Positions 16,867 through 25,162 of a DNA stretch of 53,744 bases are shown here, piece after piece (positions within the stretch are counted from its first letter, which is position 1; every line of letters begins with the position of its first letter). The notes beneath the pieces are model-generated. The model did not search any database. It saw only the letters and a program-made list of their open reading frames with translations, and was not told the DNA's origin. Origin of the DNA: Clostridiales bacterium (lineage in GTDB: Bacteria; Bacillota; Clostridia; Christensenellales; Aristaeellaceae); assembly GCA_012520375.1 (NCBI GenBank), contig JAAYOH010000022.1:1-53744 (forward strand). The letters are read 5' to 3'. A program made the translations under genes and the position numbers.

Positions 16867-17990
16867 GTACGAAGAACCAAACGGCGAGCTTCGGCGCGAA
16901 ACTGGGCAGACTGGCGCGAGACAACTCCGTGCCCATCATGTTCATCCTCATCTGCGCGGTGTGTATCCCTTTGGCGGGCTTCTCCGGGGGCTACCTGCTC
17001 AACGAGATCATCACCCGCATGGGCCGCAATACCTTCCTGATCCTCAGCCTGCTGATCCCCATCATGGCGGGCATGGGCCTGAATTTCGGCATGACCCTGG
17101 GCGCCATGGCGGGGGAGATCGCCCTGATCCTCACCGCTGACTGGCAGATCTGGGGCATCCCGGGGGTCGTGCTGTCCATGATCCTGTCCATTCCCCTGTC
17201 CGTGGGCCTGGGCCTGCTCTGCGGCAAGATCCTGAACATGGCCAAGGGCCGGGAAATGGTGACCAGCTACATCGTCAGCTATTTCATCAACGGCGTGTAC
17301 CAGCTTGTGGTGCTGTACATGATGGGCTCCATCATCCCCATCGCCCACAGCAGCATCAAGCTGCCCCGGGGCTACGGCATCCGCAACACCGTGAGCCTGC
17401 TGAACATGCGCCAGTGTATCGACAACCTGTGGGCGATCCGGGTGGGAGGCGTCAAGATCCCGGTGCTCACCTTCCTCATCATCGCCCTGCTGTGCCTGGT
17501 CATCCTGTGGTTCCGGAAGACCAAGCTGGGCCAGGATATGCGGGCGGTGGGCCAGGACATGAACGTGGCCCGGGACGCCGGGGTCGACGTGGAGCGCACC
17601 CGCATCATCTCCATCGTGATCTCCACCGTGCTGGCGGGCTTTGGCATGATCCTGTACCTGCAGAACATGGGCAACATCTCCACCTACAGCTCCCACTCCC
17701 AGATCGGCATGTTCTGCATCGCGGCGCTGCTGGTGGGCGGCGCATCGGTGGACAAGGCATCCATCGGCAACGTGTTCCTGGGGGTATCCCTGTTCCACCT
17801 TATGTTCATCGTGGCGCCTGCCGCGGGGGCAAAGATCACCGGGGACTCCATGATCGGCGAGTACTTCCGGGTGTTCGTGTCCTACGGCGTCATCACGGTG
17901 GCCCTGGTGATGTACGAGACCAAAAAGCGCAGGGCCAAGGCCAGCCTGGGCCGGCAGCTGGAACTTGAGCAAAAGGGGGCGGACAAATGA
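16863..17990 (+). CDS. ABC transporter permease (BPD_transp_2 / RbsC-like), second of two
   Basis: The 375-residue membrane protein is homologous to, but distinct from, the preceding permease. It shares the GMGLNFGMTLGAMAGE region, the AGVDVERTRIISIVISTVL coupling helix and ALLVGGASVDKASIGN. The N-terminus is about 25 residues longer on the cytoplasmic side, and the C-terminus is basic. Start and stop both overlap their neighbours by four bases, so the three genes 15793-18451 are translationally coupled. Confidence 0.9.
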   Translation: MSTKNQTASFGAKLGRLARDNSVPIMFILICAVCIPLAGFSGGYLLNEIITRMGRNTFLILSLLIPIMAGMGLNFGMTLGAMAGEIALILTADWQIWGIPGVVLSMILSIPLSVGLGLLCGKILNMAKGREMVTSYIVSYFINGVYQLVVLYMMGSIIPIAHSSIKLPRGYGIRNTVSLLNMRQCIDNLWAIRVGGVKIPVLTFLIIALLCLVILWFRKTKLGQDMRAVGQDMNVARDAGVDVERTRIISIVISTVLAGFGMILYLQNMGNISTYSSHSQIGMFCIAALLVGGASVDKASIGNVFLGVSLFHLMFIVAPAAGAKITGDSMIGEYFRVFVSYGVITVALVMYETKKRRAKASLGRQLELEQKGADK

Positions 17991-18451
17991 ACAAGTCGCG
18001 CAAGTGGCTCTTCCGGGCGGGCGCCCTGCTCCTGCTCATCCTCGTCGCCCTCCTGATGCTGTGGATCGGCCGGGGGCACACCGTGTACTTTGACAACAAG
18101 ACCATCGAGCACCAGGGGGTGGAATACAAGCCCCCCTACAAAGTGGTGGTGCGGGTGAACGGCGAGCAGGTCGCCAAGCTCAACGCCCGGGAACGGGGCA
18201 TGGCCACCTGGATCGGCCAGAACTTCAAAATGGAGCTGGAGGTCACCTGGGAAAAGAAGGGGGAAGCGGTGGTGCGCAGTTTCACCCAGAAGCTGCCCTA
18301 CAACATGGACGGCATCGTGCTGAACCTGCCCGCCCTGCTGAACGATTTCCCCGAAGAAGTATATCTCTCCGAATTTGTCCCCGTTGCCACGGAGGCCGAG
18401 GAGGTGGAAGAGGAGATCATCACCTCGGAATTCGAACTGTCGGACCTGTAG
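17987..18451 (+). CDS. Small membrane-anchored accessory protein of the DUF3798 transporter
   Basis: The 154-residue protein has a basic N-terminus, one membrane segment (residues about 8-25, RAGALLLLILVALLMLW) and an extracytoplasmic domain of about 100 residues containing VVVRVNGEQVAKLNARERG, then an acidic tail. Tight ATGA coupling to the permease indicates it works with the transporter. I recall small proteins of this kind (possibly DUF6672) next to DUF3798 genes, but cannot verify the family. A surface docking or regulatory subunit that keeps the unlipidated binding protein near the membrane is an inference. Confidence 0.75.
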   Translation: MNKSRKWLFRAGALLLLILVALLMLWIGRGHTVYFDNKTIEHQGVEYKPPYKVVVRVNGEQVAKLNARERGMATWIGQNFKMELEVTWEKKGEAVVRSFTQKLPYNMDGIVLNLPALLNDFPEEVYLSEFVPVATEAEEVEEEIITSEFELSDL

Positions 18452-18459
18452 CCAAGAGA

Positions 18460-18505
18460 AAGAGGGTTGCTGTGAAAGGTATTTTGCAGCCACCCTCTTG
18501 ATTTT
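18460..18505 (+). terminator. Rho-independent terminator of the DUF3798 transporter operon
   Basis: AAGAGGGT (18460-18467) pairs with ACCCTCTT (18492-18499), with an inner GCTG/CAGC pairing, followed by GATTTT. It lies nine bases after the last stop codon of the operon. Confidence 0.75.
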
Positions 18506-18537
18506 GTGGAGCTGTGGCTGACTTAATACGGTCAAAC

Positions 18538-18566
18538 TTGACAGCGCGGAGAAAATTGCGTACTAT
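18538..18566 (+). promoter_or_regulatory. Predicted sigma-A promoter of the Dlt-like cluster
   Basis: TTGACA (18538-18543), a 17-base spacer and TACTAT (18561-18566). It is directly downstream of the preceding terminator, so the cluster from 18630 on is an independent transcription unit. Confidence 0.75.
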
Positions 18567-18629
18567 ATATTCGCATGTCCGGCGGCGGTGCGCCCCCGGG
18601 CGGCAAACCTGATGATTGAGAGCAACGCC

Positions 18630-18863
18630 ATGAAAGAGCAGATCATTTCCATTCTCCAGGACATTTTGCCCGGGGAGGATGTTACAGAAAGCACTACCCT
18701 GGCGGACGACGGGCGGATCGATTCCCTGGCGGTAGTAGAGCTGGTCACCGAGTTCTCCATTGCCTTTGATGTGGAAATCCCCTTCAGCGACCTGGTCAAC
18801 GAAAATTTCAACAGCGCAGAAGCCATGGAAGCCATGATCCTGCGGCTGCAGCAGGGCACATGA
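18630..18863 (+). CDS. Acyl/aminoacyl carrier protein (DltC-like)
   Basis: The 77-residue protein carries an activated acyl or aminoacyl group on a phosphopantetheine arm. The attachment site is the Ser of GRIDSLAVVELV (about residue 31), and the rest of the protein is a short four-helix carrier with an acidic surface. The ATG at 18630 gives the usual family length; a second ATG at 18612 is possible and neither has a strong ribosome binding site. It overlaps the adenylation gene by ATGA, as expected for a dedicated carrier-ligase pair. Confidence 0.9.
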   Translation: MKEQIISILQDILPGEDVTESTTLADDGRIDSLAVVELVTEFSIAFDVEIPFSDLVNENFNSAEAMEAMILRLQQGT

Positions 18864-20362
18864 GACCCGGGATATCGAAGATCCTGGCGGCCTGCGCCGC
18901 ATGGGGGGACAAGACGGCCTTTTTGGATTGCAGCGGCGCAAGCCTCAGCTTCGCGCAGCTGCATGAATTGTCTCTTCGCCTGGGCACCGCCTTTCGCCAC
19001 ATGCTGAAGGGGGCGACGGGCCGGCCCATCGCGGTGGTGGCAGACCGGAGCGTGCGTTGCATCCCCGTGCTGCTGGGGGCGGCGCTGAGCGGGAGCTTTT
19101 ATGTTCCCCTGGACGGTTCGCTGCCGGAGGCCCGGCGCCGGGCCATGCTGGCTGCGATCCAGCCGGAACTGGTGGTGGGGCTGGCGGAGGGAACGTCGGA
19201 GGCAGGGTTTCGCTACATTTCTGTCGACGAGCTGTATGGCACCCTGCCGGACGCCGACGAGCTTCCGCCTGTGGACGGAGATATGCCCCTGTACGGCATT
19301 TTCACTTCCGGTTCCACCGGCTTTTCCAAGCTGGTGCTCAAGAGCTACGCAGCCCTCATGAGTTTCATCAAAGCGTATATCGAAACTTTTGGCTTTAGCG
19401 AAAGGGATGTGCTGGGCAGCCAGATCCCCTTTTCCTTTGACGCCTCCACCAAGGACCTGTATACCCCCCTGGCCTGCGGCGCCTCCACCCTGATCATCGA
19501 CAAGGGATATTTTGCCCAGCCCGGCCGCCTGGCAGAGCTGCTTCGGGATCAACGCGTCACCTCCATCGTGTGGGTGCCTTCGGCCCTTTCCATGCTCAGC
19601 CGCTTCGGCGTGCTGGGCCATATTTCCCTGCCCGACCTGAAACGGGTCTTGTTTGTGGGGGAACAGATGCCGGTACGTCAGCTGAACATCTGGCGGGAAG
19701 CCCTGCCTGACGCCCTGTTCGCCAACCTGTACGGCGTCTCCGAGAACGCGGGCAACTGCCTGTACCACGTGGTGGAGAAAAGCTACGGGGAAGACGAGCG
19801 CATTCCCTTGGGCAAGCCCTTTCCCGGAACACAGGTGCTGCTGCTGGACGAGGCGGGGGCGATTATCCCCCCGGATCAGCCTGACCTGCAGGGGGAGCTG
19901 TGTATTGGAGGGGAGATCCTGGCCCTGAGCTACTACAACGACCCGGAGGCTACGGCAAGTAAGTTCGTCCCGGGCCCCCCTGGCGTGGGGCGCATATACC
20001 ACACCGGGGACCTTGCGCGGTACGACGAGGCGGGGGACCTGGTCTTCTGTTCCCGCCGGGACCATCAGATCAAGCTGCACGGATACCGCATCGAACTGGG
20101 GGATATCGAATGTGCGGCCCTGGCCTGTCCGGGAGTGGATGCGGCCTGCTGCCTGTTCGATCCGGGGAAGAAAAAACTGACCCTGTGCTACGCGGGCGCT
20201 TCCGGGGAAGCTGCCCTGCGCACCCATCTCAAGGGGGCGCTTCCGGCGTATATGGCGCCCGGTTCCCTGGTCCGCCTGGAAAAGATGCCCCTGAACGCCA
20301 ACGGCAAGACCGACCGGGTCGCCCTGGCGCGGCGATATTGTGGGGGAGGGGATGTGCCGTGA
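18860..20362 (+). CDS. Stand-alone adenylation enzyme (DltA-like aminoacyl-carrier protein ligase)
   Basis: The 500-residue AMP-forming ligase should activate an amino acid with ATP and load it on the adjacent carrier. Adenylation core motifs are clear: A3 FTSGSTGFSKLVLKS (about 146-160), A4 SFDASTKDLYTPL, A5 NLYGVSENAGN, A7 YHTGDL, and A10 NANGKTDRVAL with the catalytic Lys. The Asp of FDAS, which contacts an alpha-amino group in this superfamily, is kept, favouring an amino acid substrate. Where DltA has FCGE with its stereoselective Cys, this protein has FVGE, so D-alanine specificity is not assured. It is coupled to the carrier gene upstream and to the GNAT downstream. Confidence 0.88.
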   Translation: MRPGISKILAACAAWGDKTAFLDCSGASLSFAQLHELSLRLGTAFRHMLKGATGRPIAVVADRSVRCIPVLLGAALSGSFYVPLDGSLPEARRRAMLAAIQPELVVGLAEGTSEAGFRYISVDELYGTLPDADELPPVDGDMPLYGIFTSGSTGFSKLVLKSYAALMSFIKAYIETFGFSERDVLGSQIPFSFDASTKDLYTPLACGASTLIIDKGYFAQPGRLAELLRDQRVTSIVWVPSALSMLSRFGVLGHISLPDLKRVLFVGEQMPVRQLNIWREALPDALFANLYGVSENAGNCLYHVVEKSYGEDERIPLGKPFPGTQVLLLDEAGAIIPPDQPDLQGELCIGGEILALSYYNDPEATASKFVPGPPGVGRIYHTGDLARYDEAGDLVFCSRRDHQIKLHGYRIELGDIECAALACPGVDAACCLFDPGKKKLTLCYAGASGEAALRTHLKGALPAYMAPGSLVRLEKMPLNANGKTDRVALARRYCGGGDVP

Positions 20363-21153
20363 TCCCGGTGGCATCCCTTCAGGCGTATTCGGATCTTCTT
20401 GCGCCCTTTCGCTGGGCGCCCGTGGGCAACAACCTGTTGATACCGGCCCAGGTGTCGGAGTATATCCGGCAGGGATGCCTGTCCTGTGAATGGACCCCGG
20501 ACTGCCTGGTCTTTGTCCGGGATGTGGGGTCCCATGCCTACCTGTACTTCAGCGCCCGGGGAGAGGACGCCCGGCTGCCCGAACTGCCCCTGGACAAGCC
20601 CCTCATCCTGCCCCTGGTCACCCGGGGCGCTACCGGGGCGAAGGGCATGGAGGCCCTGGCCCTGGCCAATGGATTTCGCCATTTGCAGACCCATAACTTT
20701 ATGGTGGTGCGGGCGCAGGACTTTGTGCCGCCCCAGCCCCCGGCCTGGCAGCCCGAGCGGGTGACGGACCCGGACCTGCTGCATAGGGTCCATGCTTATA
20801 TGATCCGATATGTGACGGGCATCATCGAGCCCTTCCCTGCCCTGGAGGAGCTTGCCGCCTTTTGGGTGTACGCGATCCGGGATCCCGGGACGGGGGAACC
20901 CGTAGCCGGAACCCTGCTCAAACCTTTCCGGAGCTCTTTCCTGGTAGAACACGTATTCACCAAACCTACCTGCCGGGGTCGGGGCTTGGCCACTGCCGTG
21001 CTGGGTTATGCCATGGGGGATGCCTTTTCCAGGGAACCCACGGGCATCGTGATCAGTTGGGTGGATGGGGAAAACCATCCCTCCATCGCATTGCACCGCC
21101 GCTTGGGCGCAGTGGACAGCGGCAAACGCTCGGTCCAGTACGTCCGGCTCTGA
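20359..21153 (+). CDS. GNAT-family N-acyltransferase in the Dlt-like cluster
   Basis: The 264-residue protein ends in a GNAT fold with the acetyl-CoA loop CRGRGLATAVLGYAM and the typical HPSIALHRRLGAVDSG strand-helix region. The N-terminal 130 residues look like a divergent second GNAT-like half. The start is the GTG at 20359, which overlaps the ligase stop (GTGA) and follows GGGGGAGGGG at about 20342-20351; earlier codons in frame lie inside the ligase gene. Its position between ligase and MBOAT suggests it acylates the amino group of the carrier-bound amino acid, or acts on the exported group. This is inference. Confidence 0.82.
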   Translation: MIPVASLQAYSDLLAPFRWAPVGNNLLIPAQVSEYIRQGCLSCEWTPDCLVFVRDVGSHAYLYFSARGEDARLPELPLDKPLILPLVTRGATGAKGMEALALANGFRHLQTHNFMVVRAQDFVPPQPPAWQPERVTDPDLLHRVHAYMIRYVTGIIEPFPALEELAAFWVYAIRDPGTGEPVAGTLLKPFRSSFLVEHVFTKPTCRGRGLATAVLGYAMGDAFSREPTGIVISWVDGENHPSIALHRRLGAVDSGKRSVQYVRL

Positions 21154-21173
21154 CCATATAGAGGAAAGACGTC

Positions 21174-22625
21174 ATGAACATTACGAGCGGTTCCTTCCTG
21201 TTTCTCTTTCTCCCCGCCTGCGCGGGGGTCTATCATCTGCTGCTGCGCCGCTGCAACATAAAGATACGCAACGCATTTTTGCTGCTGGCAAGCCTGGGCT
21301 TTTACGCCTGGGGCGAGCCGGTGCGCATCCTGCTGCTCATCTTGATGATCCTGGCCACCCATCTGTTGGGGGCGGGGGCGGCCCGGCACGCCAGGACCCC
21401 TGCGGGCAAGCGCTATGTGCTCTTTGCCGTGCTCATGAATGTGGGCGCGCTGGCGCTGTACAAGTATGTGGACATGCTGCTGGGCACCCTGGGCTATTTC
21501 CTGGGCCGGGAACTCCCCTCCCTGGGGTTGGGGCTCCCCCTGGGGCTGTCTTACTTCTGTTTCTCCTCGATCTCCTACGTGGTGGACCTGTACCGGGGCA
21601 AGCATGCCCCCCAGAACTTGCCGGGTACTGCACTGTACCTGTCCGCTTTCTTCAAAATCACCGCAGGCCCCATCGCAGCCTATGGGGATTTTGAAGGGGC
21701 CCTCCGGGAGCGGGAGGTGTCCCCGGACGATCTGGCGGAGGGGACCTGGCGCTTCATGATCGGCTTTTGCAAGAAGGCGATCCTGGCCCTCAACCTGGCC
21801 CATGTGTCCCGGGCGGCCCTGGAGGCGGGGGCGGAGCTTTCCACCTCCCTGGCCTGGCTGGGCGCCTTCGCCTACCTGCTGCAGCTGTACTTCGATTTCT
21901 CGGGCTATTCCGACATGGCCATCGGCCTGGGCCGCATGTTCGGCTTCAGGCTCCCGGAGAACTTCAACTACCCCTACATTGCCCGCTCGGTGTCGGAGTA
22001 TTGGCGGCGCTGGCACATGACCCTGGGCGCCTGGGTCCGGGATTACATGTATTACCCCCTGACCCTGGGACCGGCGGTGCGCCTGCGCAAACGCCTCCTG
22101 AAGCATTTTGACCGGAACGTGAGCCGGGGGATCCAGTCCCTGCTCGTCCTGTCCCTGATCTGGTTCGCCATCGGCCTGTGGCACGGGGCCCAGTGGAACT
22201 GCGTGCTGTGGGGCCTGATCAACGGCCTGTTCGTCTTTGGGGAGGGCCTTCGGACAAGAGAGCCCAAGCCCTTCTGGGGCTGGCTGTATACCTTCGGCCT
22301 CTCCCTCTTTGTCAAGCCTCTGGCGGCCACGGGCACCCTGGGCCAGGCGACGCGCTACTATGGGGCTATGATGGGGATGGGCGCACCGGGCAGGGAGCAC
22401 ACCCTCTTCCTGCTGCGGGAGTACGGGGTTTTCCTGGCGGCGGGGATGCTGTGCGCGGTTCCTTCCGGCAAGTGGCTGCTGGCACGCATCGAGGAAAAGG
22501 CGAGTCCCCGGCTAACGCGCCTGGTGCGGGGCGTTGCCCTGTGTGCCCTGCTCCTCCTGTTCTTCCTGGCCCTGTCCTACGCCATATCCTATGCTGTTCC
22601 CGAATTCATCTACGGGAAATACTGA
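21174..22625 (+). CDS. MBOAT-family membrane O-acyltransferase (DltB/AlgI-like)
   Basis: The 483-residue polytopic protein belongs to the family that passes acyl groups from a cytoplasmic carrier across the membrane to an extracellular polymer. Hallmarks are the FDFSGYSDMAIGLGRMFGF region, NFNYPYIARSVSEYWRRWHMTL, and the catalytic-His segment AIGLWHGAQWNCVLWG. About eleven membrane segments are visible. Together with the carrier-ligase pair upstream and the AlgJ/AlgX-like protein downstream it completes a Dlt-like export route. The start lies behind GAGGAAAG. Confidence 0.93.
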   Translation: MNITSGSFLFLFLPACAGVYHLLLRRCNIKIRNAFLLLASLGFYAWGEPVRILLLILMILATHLLGAGAARHARTPAGKRYVLFAVLMNVGALALYKYVDMLLGTLGYFLGRELPSLGLGLPLGLSYFCFSSISYVVDLYRGKHAPQNLPGTALYLSAFFKITAGPIAAYGDFEGALREREVSPDDLAEGTWRFMIGFCKKAILALNLAHVSRAALEAGAELSTSLAWLGAFAYLLQLYFDFSGYSDMAIGLGRMFGFRLPENFNYPYIARSVSEYWRRWHMTLGAWVRDYMYYPLTLGPAVRLRKRLLKHFDRNVSRGIQSLLVLSLIWFAIGLWHGAQWNCVLWGLINGLFVFGEGLRTREPKPFWGWLYTFGLSLFVKPLAATGTLGQATRYYGAMMGMGAPGREHTLFLLREYGVFLAAGMLCAVPSGKWLLARIEEKASPRLTRLVRGVALCALLLLFFLALSYAISYAVPEFIYGKY

Positions 22626-22640
22626 AGGGAGGATACCGCC

Positions 22641-23894
22641 ATGAAAAGCCTTGGGGTCAAGCGCATCGCCTGTGTCCTCTTTTTCGCGCTCCTGCTGGTC
22701 AATGCCCTGTCCCTGTTTTTCCGCAAACCGGAAGCGAATGGTGTGTCCGGCAAAGCCGTGATCGATCTGGCGAAAGTTTATCCCTTCGAGGAGAAACAGC
22801 CTGCCCCTCCCCGCCGCTCCCTGGCCCAGCGCCTGAGCAGCCTGATCGGGAAGGTAGACAACGCCTGCAATCGGCGTACGGCGCTGCTGGACGCTTACCG
22901 GTACACCTACGGGCTGTCTGCCCGCCTGCTGGGGAAGGCCCGCGTCGAAGACCTGGAGGAAGATGTCTACCGCTTGGACAATGGCTGGCTGACCTACCTC
23001 ACCTTACCCTGTGAGCAGGAGACGCTGGATTGGGCGGTGGAAAACGCGAGCGAGTTGCAGAACTTCCTGGCTGAACGGGACGGCAGGCTGCTGGTTGTTT
23101 TCCCGTTGGCCAAGGACGACGAAATCATGGGGCAATTGCCCCGTGGGGTTACTTCCTACCGCAACCGAAACACCAAGGCGATCTGCGCGGCTCTGGACCA
23201 AAGGGGCATCCCCTGCATGGATATGGCAGAGGAGAGCGGCCTCACGGGTCAGGCCTTTTACGACATGTTTTTTCGAACCGACCATCACTTCACCCACGAG
23301 ACGGGCTTTGCGATGGCGGCGCACATCGCGGAAAAAATCCGCGCCCTGACGGGACAGGTTCTGGATGAAGCCTGTTTCGACCGGGCCAATTACCGGGCCC
23401 GGCGCTATGAAGGCGTCTTTATGGGCAGCCAGGGCAGAAAGGTGACCCGGGGGTATGGGGCTTCCTGCGAAGACCTGACGGTGCTCACCCCCACCTTTGA
23501 GACGTCCTTCCGCCTGACGGACGCGTTGACCGGTACGGTGCGGGAGGGCAACTACGAACAGACGCTGCTGGACCAAAGCATGCTGACGGAAGAGGCGTTT
23601 GCCGCAGAGAAAGATCTCTACCGGGCATTCATGTGGGGAGATCGTCCCCTGAAACAGGTGGAGAACCTGCTGGCGGACAACGAGCTGCGCATCCTGGTGA
23701 TCCGGGATTCCAAAGCGGCGGTCATCACGACCTTCCTGGCCTGCGCCATCCGGTACCTGGACATCATCGATTCCCGCCACTTCCAGGGGAGCATCCAGAC
23801 CTTTATCCAACAGAATCCGCCGGACCTCGTGCTGGTGCTGCTCCATTCCCCCGGACAGGACAGGGGCACCGCAAGGCAGTGGCGCCTGAAGTAA
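22641..23894 (+). CDS. AlgJ/AlgX-like (DHHW-type) extracellular transferase partner of the MBOAT
   Basis: The 417-residue protein has an N-terminal membrane anchor (about residues 9-27) and a large extracytoplasmic domain. The RTDHHFTHETGFAMAAHIAE segment matches the His-containing motif of the DHHW/AlgJ-AlgX group, and LVIRDSKAAVITTF near the C-terminus corresponds to the SGNH nucleophile block (usually GDSY; here RDSK, with Asp-Ser kept and the Gly replaced). It would finish transfer to the polymer, the role DltD plays in canonical Dlt systems. It follows the MBOAT gene by 15 bases with GGGAGG. Confidence 0.82.
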   Translation: MKSLGVKRIACVLFFALLLVNALSLFFRKPEANGVSGKAVIDLAKVYPFEEKQPAPPRRSLAQRLSSLIGKVDNACNRRTALLDAYRYTYGLSARLLGKARVEDLEEDVYRLDNGWLTYLTLPCEQETLDWAVENASELQNFLAERDGRLLVVFPLAKDDEIMGQLPRGVTSYRNRNTKAICAALDQRGIPCMDMAEESGLTGQAFYDMFFRTDHHFTHETGFAMAAHIAEKIRALTGQVLDEACFDRANYRARRYEGVFMGSQGRKVTRGYGASCEDLTVLTPTFETSFRLTDALTGTVREGNYEQTLLDQSMLTEEAFAAEKDLYRAFMWGDRPLKQVENLLADNELRILVIRDSKAAVITTFLACAIRYLDIIDSRHFQGSIQTFIQQNPPDLVLVLLHSPGQDRGTARQWRLK

Positions 23895-24022
23895 ATGATA
23901 GGATGATGGGATGAACGGCGTCTCCCGATTTTATTTCAGTTATCAAAAAAGTATTAAAGTTCTGAATATCTCCCCCGGGGAGGCGGATTTGGCGGTTGGG
24001 AATACTTTACAACTTGTCCTTC

Positions 24023-24051
24023 TTGTGATATGCTATGAATATGAATATAAT
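24023..24051 (+). promoter_or_regulatory. Predicted promoter of the SH3-domain protein gene
   Basis: TTGTGA (24023-24028), a 17-base spacer and perfect TATAAT (24046-24051). It lies in a short AT-rich gap between the Dlt-like cluster and the SH3 gene. Confidence 0.65.
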
Positions 24052-24088
24052 AAATAGATGTCACGAATCACTGCGGGAGGGTGTAACC

Positions 24089-24586
24089 ATGAAGAAGAAG
24101 TGCGGTGTGCAGCGGCTCATGGCTGTGCTGGTCGTCCTGATGCTCCTCATGACGGCTTTCTCTCCGGCTCTGGCCAAGGTGGGCCGGACTTATGTCAGCC
24201 GCGTCAACGGTCTGCGTGTCCGCACCAAGGGAATGAGCGGCTCTCCGGTCATCGGCAAACTGTATCGCGGACAGAAGGTCATCCATCGCGGAAGTTCCAG
24301 GGGCTGGTGGCTGATCGAGACCAACAAGGGCCTTAAGGGCTATGTCTTTCGCACCTATCTGAAGCCCGCGGAACCCCAGTGGATCAGAAATGCCGACTAC
24401 AGGGTTTATAAGACGAAAAGGGCTGTGGTGCGCAGGGGCCCCCGTCCAGCGGCCGATAAAATAGGCACCATCCAGCGGGGCACGGTGGTGAAACTGACAG
24501 GCAAGCAGGGCAACTGGGGCAAGATCCGGGTGGGCACCAGGTCCGGTTGGGTTCAGCTCAAGTTCTTGAGTTTCATCAGCAGGTAA
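24089..24586 (+). CDS. Secreted protein with two bacterial SH3 domains
   Basis: The 165-residue protein has a Sec signal peptide ending ALA at about residue 30 (LMLLMTAFSPALA) and then two SH3b-like repeats. The first reads NGLRVRTKGMSGSPVIGKL and the second RAVVRRGPRPAADKIGTI, each ending in a GW- or GYV-type strand. SH3b domains bind cell-wall peptides or help target wall enzymes; there is no catalytic domain here. The ATG at 24089 is chosen over an upstream in-frame ATG at 24035 because GGGAGG precedes it and the signal peptide follows directly. The mature protein is strongly basic. Confidence 0.85.
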   Translation: MKKKCGVQRLMAVLVVLMLLMTAFSPALAKVGRTYVSRVNGLRVRTKGMSGSPVIGKLYRGQKVIHRGSSRGWWLIETNKGLKGYVFRTYLKPAEPQWIRNADYRVYKTKRAVVRRGPRPAADKIGTIQRGTVVKLTGKQGNWGKIRVGTRSGWVQLKFLSFISR

Positions 24587-24797: not shown

Positions 24798-24873
24798 TGG
24801 TGACCCATCGGAGATTCGAACTCCGGACACCCTGATTAAAAGTCAGGTGCTCTGCCGACTGAGCTAATGGGTC
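24798..24873 (-). tRNA. tRNA-Lys (anticodon TTT)
   Basis: On the minus strand the cloverleaf starts GACCCATTAGCTCAG, has anticodon loop CTTTTAA with anticodon TTT, a T-arm GTTCGAATC, and the acceptor closes GACCC/GGGTC with an encoded CCA at 24798-24800. It is the last tRNA of the operon. Confidence 0.97.
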
Positions 24874-24878
24874 TAAAC

Positions 24879-24954
24879 TGGCTGGGGCGGCAGGATTTGA
24901 ACCTGCGTCTGCAAGAGTCAAAGTCTTGTGCCTTAACCGCTTGGCGACGCCCCA
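24879..24954 (-). tRNA. tRNA-Gln (anticodon TTG)
   Basis: On the minus strand it starts TGGGGCGTCGCCAAGCGG, the usual tRNA-Gln opening with U1-A72. The anticodon loop CTTTGAC gives TTG, the T-arm is GTTCAAATC, and CCA is encoded at 24879-24881. Confidence 0.96.
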
Positions 24955-25004
24955 AAGGGTTCGCATCGCGGCCGTTCAGACCGCACCGACCGCAGAGAAG
25001 GAAA

Positions 25005-25082
25005 TGGGGTGGATAGTGGGGCTTGAACCCACGGCCTCCAGGGCCACAACCTGGCACTCTGACCTACTGAGCTATATCCACC
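25005..25082 (-). tRNA. tRNA-His (anticodon GTG)
   Basis: On the minus strand it starts GGTGGATATAGCTCAG with the extra G-1 paired to C73, diagnostic of tRNA-His. The anticodon loop TTGTGGC gives GTG, and CCA is encoded at 25005-25007. Confidence 0.97.
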
Positions 25083-25088
25083 ACACAG

Positions 25089-25162
25089 CACGCCCGAAGG
25101 GATTCGAACCCTTGACCCACAGCTTAGAAGGCTGTTGCTCTATCCAGCTGAGCTACAGGCGC
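25089..25162 (-). tRNA. tRNA-Arg (anticodon TCT)
   Basis: On the minus strand it starts GCGCCTGTAGCTCAGCTGG, anticodon loop CTTCTAA gives TCT, and the T-arm is GTTCGAATC. The acceptor ends CGGGCGT with a G1-U72 pair and G73. CCA is not encoded, unlike the other three. It is the first tRNA of the operon. Confidence 0.96.

Follow-up and report, generated by a model that had tools for sequence, protein, structure and literature searches.

An apparent hybrid relative of ligase-GNAT gene clusters in an uncultured Clostridiales bacterium, with a possible role in envelope decoration

The locus considered here lies on the + strand at 18630-23894 of the window (the whole analyzed stretch of 53,744 nucleotides from an uncultured Clostridiales bacterium), and it raises the question of whether its five genes form one pathway and, if so, which group this pathway might deliver. 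The first gene (18630..18863) codes for a 77 aa carrier protein with the phosphopantetheine site Ser32 in a GRIDSL motif (PF00550, PP-binding; 30.4 bits, cut-off 20.8), and is followed by a stand-alone adenylating ligase of 500 aa (18860..20362; PF00501, AMP-binding; 185.2 bits, cut-off 29.9) with the pocket DAKWLVLGNK and a match to TIGR01733 of 288 bits (cut-off 317.4). Next come a tandem GNAT of 264 aa (20359..21153; PF00583, Acetyltransf_1; 36.0 bits, cut-off 20.7) with a CoA-type RGRGLA motif at residue 206, an MBOAT of 483 aa (21174..22625; PF03062; 71.4 bits, cut-off 27) with His337 in WHGAQW and Tyr480 in a C-terminal FIYGKY hexapeptide, and an AlgX/PatB1-like SGNH acyltransferase of 417 aa (22641..23894; PF16822, ALGX; 40.4 bits, cut-off 26.5) with TDHHF (Asp214) and IRDSKA (Ser357) motifs. 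The original prediction of five genes in one unit is borne out, as all are present and each protein scores above its curated Pfam cut-off; all five frames are open, with intact catalytic or carrier motifs. The ATGA/GTGA overlaps described there occur at two of the four junctions (ATGA at 18860-18863 between carrier and ligase, GTGA at 20359-20362 between ligase and GNAT), the other two being gaps of 20 (GNAT/MBOAT) and 15 bases (MBOAT/SGNH). The predicted promoter of the cluster's own upstream of the carrier is plausible but unproven: a consensus scan recovered a single sigma-70-like match there (TTGACA-17-TACTAT, 18538..18566, + strand, 10/12 positions), which is not functional evidence, and the region 18400-24200 contains 4 promoter-like sites, where shuffled sequence gives 1.6 (sd 1.3).

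The reading that we favor, with a probability of roughly one half, is that the five genes constitute a single operon whose products assemble an acyl group on the carrier and attach it to a glycan of the envelope. The substrate of the ligase would be a free amino acid, probably an acidic one, which it would adenylate and load onto the carrier; there the tandem GNAT would N-acylate it with an acyl-CoA as the acyl source. Once complete, the acyl group might be moved by the MBOAT from the carrier to Tyr480 of the MBOAT's own C-terminal hexapeptide, from which the PatB1/AlgX-like SGNH enzyme would take it over and transfer it to a surface polysaccharide.

The strongest competing explanation, which we consider possible though clearly less likely, is that two functions lie side by side, with the MBOAT and the PatB1-like enzyme forming an acetyl-CoA-dependent O-acetyltransferase pair, and the carrier, ligase and GNAT making something else. 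It draws on the affinities of the pair itself. In the tree the MBOAT sits on a long branch grouping with the AlgX-type MBOATs (100/96), and it scores 264-310 bits against 16 of the 18 AlgX-type MBOATs, compared with 131-202 bits against the 43 ligase-linked ones. Bacillus cereus PatB1 (5v8d) matches the SGNH protein at 1.7e-18 with both motifs aligned, and we take Asp214 and Ser357 to correspond to the PatB1 catalytic residues. The DHHW-type end enzyme originally proposed is not upheld, with PF14286 reaching 12.8 (cut-off 25) and DHHF standing in place of DHHW. A PF14286 search of the bacterium's own genome is uninformative on this point, as it recovered no match there and none in the control genomes. 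The nearest sequence relatives of the pair are the MBOAT-SGNH O-acetyltransferases of the acetyl-CoA type (PatA/PatB, PatB1, AlgI/AlgX), which share with it the C-terminal FxYxx[aromatic] motif and the SGNH partner, and ligase-free pairs of this kind are common in the bacterium's own family. As described in excerpts of PMC12148441, these pairs use an acyl-CoA donor and no carrier, whereas in the window the pair comes after genes for a carrier, a ligase and a GNAT.

Several observations weigh against such a separation. The five genes are closely packed on the + strand as a single transcription unit, and an AU test leaves placement of the MBOAT on the ligase-linked side unrejected (p 0.179). The window MBOAT possesses the conserved His and an FxYxxF-type shuttle motif at its C-terminus, the shuttle Tyr there being a feature of MBOAT-SGNH pairs (PMC12148441, in part), and its partner has the expected Ser and Asp/His motifs; however, the residue after the shuttle Tyr is Gly, while it is Phe in 17/17 intact AlgX-type sequences (L044, the remaining one of the 18, was excluded because it has no such motif at its C-terminus). 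This Phe is missing from 42/43 ligase-linked MBOATs and present in one. The three other MBOATs of the same genome all have the Phe of the AlgX-type hexapeptide, with no ligase-type MBOAT among them. FIYGKY also ends in Tyr in place of the Phe of FxYxxF, as do several ligase-linked MBOATs. Nevertheless, the lost Phe does not prove that the donor has changed: the pairs most similar to this MBOAT-SGNH pair are of the acetyl-CoA type, and NgPatA, which uses acetyl-CoA, itself carries FIYANF (PMC12148441, in part).

A further argument against separate functions is that in relatives the ligase-GNAT pair is accompanied by an MBOAT. The GNAT as a single query against genome contigs found no relative, the family being diverse and recovered by profile search. 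Such a search of 391 class genomes yielded 11 strong near-full-length members among the matches listed, window included, and in 10/10 of the others the gene lies directly behind a ligase, with genes for an MBOAT and an SGNH-type enzyme after it. From the weaker matches listed, 11 loci were hand-picked as GNAT controls. A second set of 80 loci was collected via an SGNH-deacetylase fusion, whose presence there is hence by construction, and its first 34 (L162-L195) were examined: 21 have a ligase and 13 show none, some being cut by contig ends. A GNAT is present in 16 of the 21, recognized in L162 and L168 by stop-to-stop reading only, and all 16 directly follow the ligase; its absence from the other 5 implies that it is dispensable for the core. 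Independence of the two sets is incomplete, since L184 and L150 carry identical ligases. Gene calls in the relatives are mechanical ORFs, among which no carrier was detected in L111, L165 and L167, and by the same calls the ligase and GNAT frames overlap in 23 of 24 measured non-window pairs, the last having a 42-base gap. The proposal that the GNAT belongs with the ligase, carrier and MBOAT is thus supported by both sets; homologs standing apart from these genes, which would have spoken against it, were looked for, and the GNATs were found behind ligases.

What the GNAT might do is indicated by its slot, which in related clusters holds a PLP decarboxylase or nothing. The decarboxylase occupies it for 12/73 ligases of the ligase set, and the gene lists contain no cluster with both enzymes; in this tally the GNAT label was assigned before the decarboxylase label, and the group with no tailoring gene includes L092, whose decarboxylase lies beyond the carrier. 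The decarboxylases BtrK (excerpts of PMC7857480) and VinO (excerpts of PMC11284099) act on a carrier-bound amino acid. Given this shared slot, the GNAT would be a tailoring enzyme that acts on the carrier within a Dlt-like envelope pathway, the amino acid probably being N-acylated while on the carrier, before its transfer to a surface sugar polymer. The AlphaFold2 model (pLDDT 91.1) is a tandem GNAT, with a fold near those of mycothiol synthase and glycine N-acyltransferase. It is unlikely that the GNAT instead has a free amino acid or the polymer as its substrate, or offloads the group from the carrier to an amine in the manner of the N-acyl amino acid synthases, although GNATs are versatile and the gene is missing from a minority of the ligase-bearing second-set loci. 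In relatives it sits between ligase and carrier, the decarboxylase slot, and the pocket Asp that holds the amino group of the substrate (excerpts of PMC11253843), Asp235 in the window, is kept in 25/25 GNAT-cluster ligases, window included, which argues against loading of a pre-N-acylated substrate. Hence the ligase likely loads the free amino acid, with N-acylation afterwards. Lys239 in the pocket suggests an acidic amino acid; behind this suggestion stand a single basic residue and the glutamate pocket code, which Lys239 and Asp331 presumably resemble and for which a text search of the literature gave no paper. No precedent for a GNAT N-acylating a substrate on a carrier was found among the open-licence PMC papers listed.

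The related ligase-GNAT clusters (L107-L111, L146-L150 and L162-L190) share with the window the same GNAT family directly behind the ligase, with carrier and MBOAT nearby. They differ in having the carrier between GNAT and MBOAT instead of first, an MBOAT of another clade and, as end enzyme in those examined, an SGNH-deacetylase fusion or an SGNH-like protein of 345-354 aa, the window being the only case of the AlgX/PatB1 type encountered. Conservation of the gene order with an AlgX-type end enzyme is not upheld in the clusters examined. Within the bacterium's own family the full order was not found: the ligase clusters read there contain either a PLP decarboxylase or a second ligase, or lack a tailoring gene. 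No second genome with the window's order was recovered among the class genomes and loci examined. On gene order, end enzyme and tree position the window would thus be a hybrid relative of the ligase-GNAT clusters and not a typical member. That it is a recently acquired or decaying hybrid devoid of present function is quite improbable: the lack of a second case and the long branches of the MBOAT and the ligase (the longest end branch of the ligase tree, with unsure placement) would fit, but the five open frames and intact motifs do not. A genomic island is a conceivable setting: in the sole further genome of the genus (89% complete), similarity stops at the tRNA-Lys edge, but the contig there ends 459 bases beyond this point.

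A plain D-alanylation pathway with a stray GNAT, to which we give hardly any credence in spite of the overall Dlt-like parts, is rejected on the ligase pocket and the model scores, and conservation of the GNAT with the ligase likewise opposes it. None of the equivalog models for DltA (TIGR01734, 214.7 bits, cut-off 559.85), DltB (TIGR04091, 157.7, cut-off 375) and DltC (NF003464, 40.5, cut-off 68; TIGR01688, 22.3, cut-off 52.35) reaches its cut-off. The ligase pocket differs from that of DltA, with Val301 at the position of the pocket Cys (C268/C269), the role of which in the D-alanine pocket is described in excerpts of PMC11253843; pocket and TIGR01734 score each speak for a ligase other than DltA. 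As in the Dlt pathway (DltA, DltC, DltB, DltX, DltD), a ligase would load a carrier, and an MBOAT and SGNH enzyme would pass the group to a surface polymer. Unlike it, the window has an added GNAT, an AlgX/PatB1-like end enzyme, and the shuttle Tyr on the C-terminus of the MBOAT itself rather than on the DltX microprotein.

The proposed route is also reminiscent of BtrI/BtrK (butirosin) and VinN/VinL/VinO (vicenistatin), in which an amino acid is modified on a stand-alone carrier, though there by decarboxylation, for an antibiotic product and with no MBOAT. AlmE, the glycine ligase of lipopolysaccharide glycylation, has AlmF and AlmG as partners and, to our knowledge, no MBOAT. Its likeness to the window lies in being a stand-alone ligase for envelope decoration (PMC11253843, in part).

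The groups known to pass through MBOAT-SGNH systems are CoA-derived acetyl and carrier-derived D-alanine. If amino acids first undergo decarboxylation or N-acylation while on the carrier, this would widen the known range of gut-bacterial surface decorations and predict directly assayable chemistry, and the window would show a naturally arisen donor switch in an MBOAT-SGNH pair, bearing on what selects the acyl group. More speculatively, and doubtful as a whole, these clusters might serve to replace one group by another on amino-sugar polymers of the envelope. In the common version of the cluster, the fusion of a DltD-like transferase with a PgaB/IcaB/PplD-like N-deacetylase would replace the acetyl of GlcNAc with a carrier-built N-acylated acidic amino acid (an anionic versus a cationic decoration), and in the window an acetyl-CoA-type MBOAT-SGNH pair would have been converted to the same group. 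No paper on such a ligase-GNAT cluster was found in the open-licence PMC literature (subscription papers and preprints lie outside it), and excerpts of PMC9558356 contain nothing on carrier-fed MBOATs beyond Dlt. Comparison of the ligase with plasmids returned 2499 records, all below 60% identity, the best listed being of the NRPS type where annotated.

The five genes of the cluster, all on the + strand and coding for a carrier (18630-18863), a ligase (18860-20362), a GNAT (20359-21153), an MBOAT (21174-22625) and an SGNH protein (22641-23894), were recovered as originally predicted, each with a Pfam match over its curated cut-off. The proposed ATGA and GTGA overlaps are present at two junctions, the other two being short gaps, and of the AlgX- and DHHW-like identities suggested for the end enzyme the former stands (ALGX 40.4 bits, cut-off 26.5), while DHHW was rejected at 12.8 bits, below its cut-off of 25. 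The best solved relative of the SGNH protein is Bacillus cereus PatB1 (5v8d, 1.7e-18), and those of the MBOAT are DltB chains (1.4e-25). The cluster is real and, as had been claimed, not a textbook system: by the tests made it is not a member of the Dlt pathway, and in comparison to the usual ligase-GNAT clusters it is an atypical, hybrid relative.

The conserved, unusual part of the cluster is the ligase-GNAT link. As a single query the window GNAT recovered only short C-terminal matches in four other genomes among the 200 family genomes searched, with zero matches in the one other genome of the genus, and matched eight others among 391 class genomes, three over most of the protein. A six-row profile run over these 391 genomes gave 11 near-full-length matches (E 1e-108 to 1e-21), six of them its own rows; beyond the break the weaker matches, from 1e-16, cover mostly the C-terminal half among the matches listed. 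The ligase lies directly upstream of the GNAT in all 10 strong members outside the window, with an MBOAT and an SGNH-like gene then downstream, which bears out the GNAT as a true cluster member. In nine of these 10 loci the carrier gene separates the GNAT from the MBOAT; no carrier was found at L111, where the contig ends within the ligase. As a control, no ligase is visible around nine of the 11 weaker GNATs whose neighbourhoods were read, and in the two exceptions, L151 and L158, where the GNAT matches cover most of the profile, a ligase-carrier pair is present but not directly adjacent. These pairs (L151, 5421-9029; L158, 8289-11853), with the pocket DIFWWALLDK, lie near a more distant tandem-type GNAT.

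For related ligases, both within the window's own family and in other parts of the class, ALTERNATIVES in this slot comprise a PLP decarboxylase, a GNAT or neither. In the final set of 73 ligases, an ornithine/DAP-type PLP decarboxylase (best model TIGR03099, under its cut-off) lies between ligase and carrier in 12, a GNAT is the partner in 25, window included, and neither adjoins the remaining 36, 13 of which belong to twin-ligase clusters; GNAT and decarboxylase occur together in no gene list read. Mapped onto the ligase tree, the slot labels require 8 changes, compared with 30.6 for shuffled labels. Most of the ligase-decarboxylase-carrier clusters (L083-L086, L093, L271, L275, L281, L285, L286, L290) also hold an MBOAT and an SGNH-like gene, and possibly place decarboxylated amino acids on the surface. 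At L087-L091 and L094 the order is carrier, ligase, MBOAT, SGNH, second ligase. Decarboxylation as tailoring on the carrier has been described for BtrI-S-glutamate by BtrK (PMC7857480) and for 3-methylaspartyl-VinL by VinO (PMC11284099), and because of this analogy the GNAT is read as a putative on-carrier N-acylating enzyme. Its AlphaFold2 model (15 rows, pLDDT 91.1, pTM 0.84) is a tandem GNAT closest to MAB_4324 (Z 19.2, 255 residues, 3.8 A), followed by mycothiol synthase (19.1), the clavulanate tandem GNAT (16.9) and glycine N-acyltransferase (15.0), with RGRGLA, a CoA-type motif, in the C-terminal half.

Ligase pocket positions were fixed by motif anchoring to GrsA numbering. The GNAT-cluster ligases have Asp235 (25/25), Lys239 (23/25), Trp278 (25/25) and Asp331 (23/25). 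The window ligase (DAKWLVLGNK) has Asn331, as do L111 and the decarboxylase group, whose pocket is DVKW[LM]SLCNK in 12/12. Lys239 suggests an acidic substrate side chain, and the pocket may resemble a glutamate code. Asp235, the role of which is described along with the DltA pocket residues in PMC11253843, implies a free amino group when the substrate is loaded; N-acylation would therefore come after loading. In the twin clusters the six first ligases show DNLW[FLWY]CMDVK, with Cys301, and the second ligases (7 rows) possess no Asp235 and therefore may activate a non-amino acid. As judged from sequence, the cluster most likely operates as a Dlt pathway does, but with one more step in which the carrier-bound group is tailored.

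The window cluster is read as a hybrid. A tree built from 62 MBOATs places all 43 ligase-linked ones on one side (100/98); the window MBOAT falls with the 18 others, of which 16 come from AlgX regions in the family and two stand beside a deacetylase fusion without ligase (L186, L189). Its placement on the ligase-linked side is not rejected by the AU test (p 0.179). Its bit scores, 264-310 against 16 of these 18 and 173 against the other two, versus 131-202 against ligase-linked MBOATs, favour the AlgX type. According to PMC12148441, the acyl group in PatA is carried by the hexapeptide Tyr, and Dlt uses a carrier where other MBOAT-SGNH pairs evidently use acyl-CoA. A Phe follows this Tyr in 17/17 AlgX-type rows with the C-terminal motif (one further row is without it) versus 1/43 ligase-linked rows. 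The window hexapeptide is FIYGKY, those of the three other MBOATs of its genome being FIYFRF, FIYFRF and FIYFNF; the lost Phe is not to be over-read, because NgPatA has FIYANF (same source). With moderate confidence, the window cluster can be regarded as an AlgX-type MBOAT-SGNH pair that has been coupled to a front end of carrier and GNAT.

Eight of the 10 strong GNAT loci finish with a gene for a protein of some 580-620 aa, a fusion of an SGNH-like N-terminal part to a C-terminal polysaccharide deacetylase (PF01522, 96.7 bits; among NCBIfam models PgaB and IcaB score best, each under its cut-off), with Asp-Asp and His/His motifs invariant across 8 rows. Its model (pLDDT 88.0) matches PplD, PgaB and IcaB structures at 1e-17 to 1e-13 and DltD much more weakly (6o93, 4.5e-4; 7dxm, 7.0e-4; TM-scores <0.4), the part matching DltD being taken to be the N-terminal half. 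At the other two loci the final gene codes for an SGNH-like protein, 354 aa long in one and 345 aa in the other; a Pfam search with the one from L111 had no match. The fusions reside in carrier-MBOAT clusters (L107, 5085-6920; L110, 10726-12555; L146, 5475-7301; L162, 7001-8833; and others). A named-genome scan with the fusion kept 80 loci, mostly from uncultured Oscillospiraceae, Clostridia and other Bacillota; among the 34 examined, 16 have a GNAT, with the ligase directly upstream in 16/16, five have a ligase without GNAT, and in 13 no ligase is visible. At L186 (2271-5563) and L189 (1317-4724) an MBOAT with the AlgX-type hexapeptide FLYFQF adjoins the fusion without a ligase, perhaps as an acetyl-CoA-fed version.

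Just upstream of the window cluster lies a DUF6672 protein (17987-18451, 184 bits), which had no match in the other genome of the genus and by eye closes an ABC-transporter operon. Downstream, tRNA genes for Lys, Gln, His and Arg, four in all, occupy 24798-25162. The sequence resembles that other genome from 26994 down to position 24798, and the similarity ends there, precisely at the edge of tRNA-Lys.
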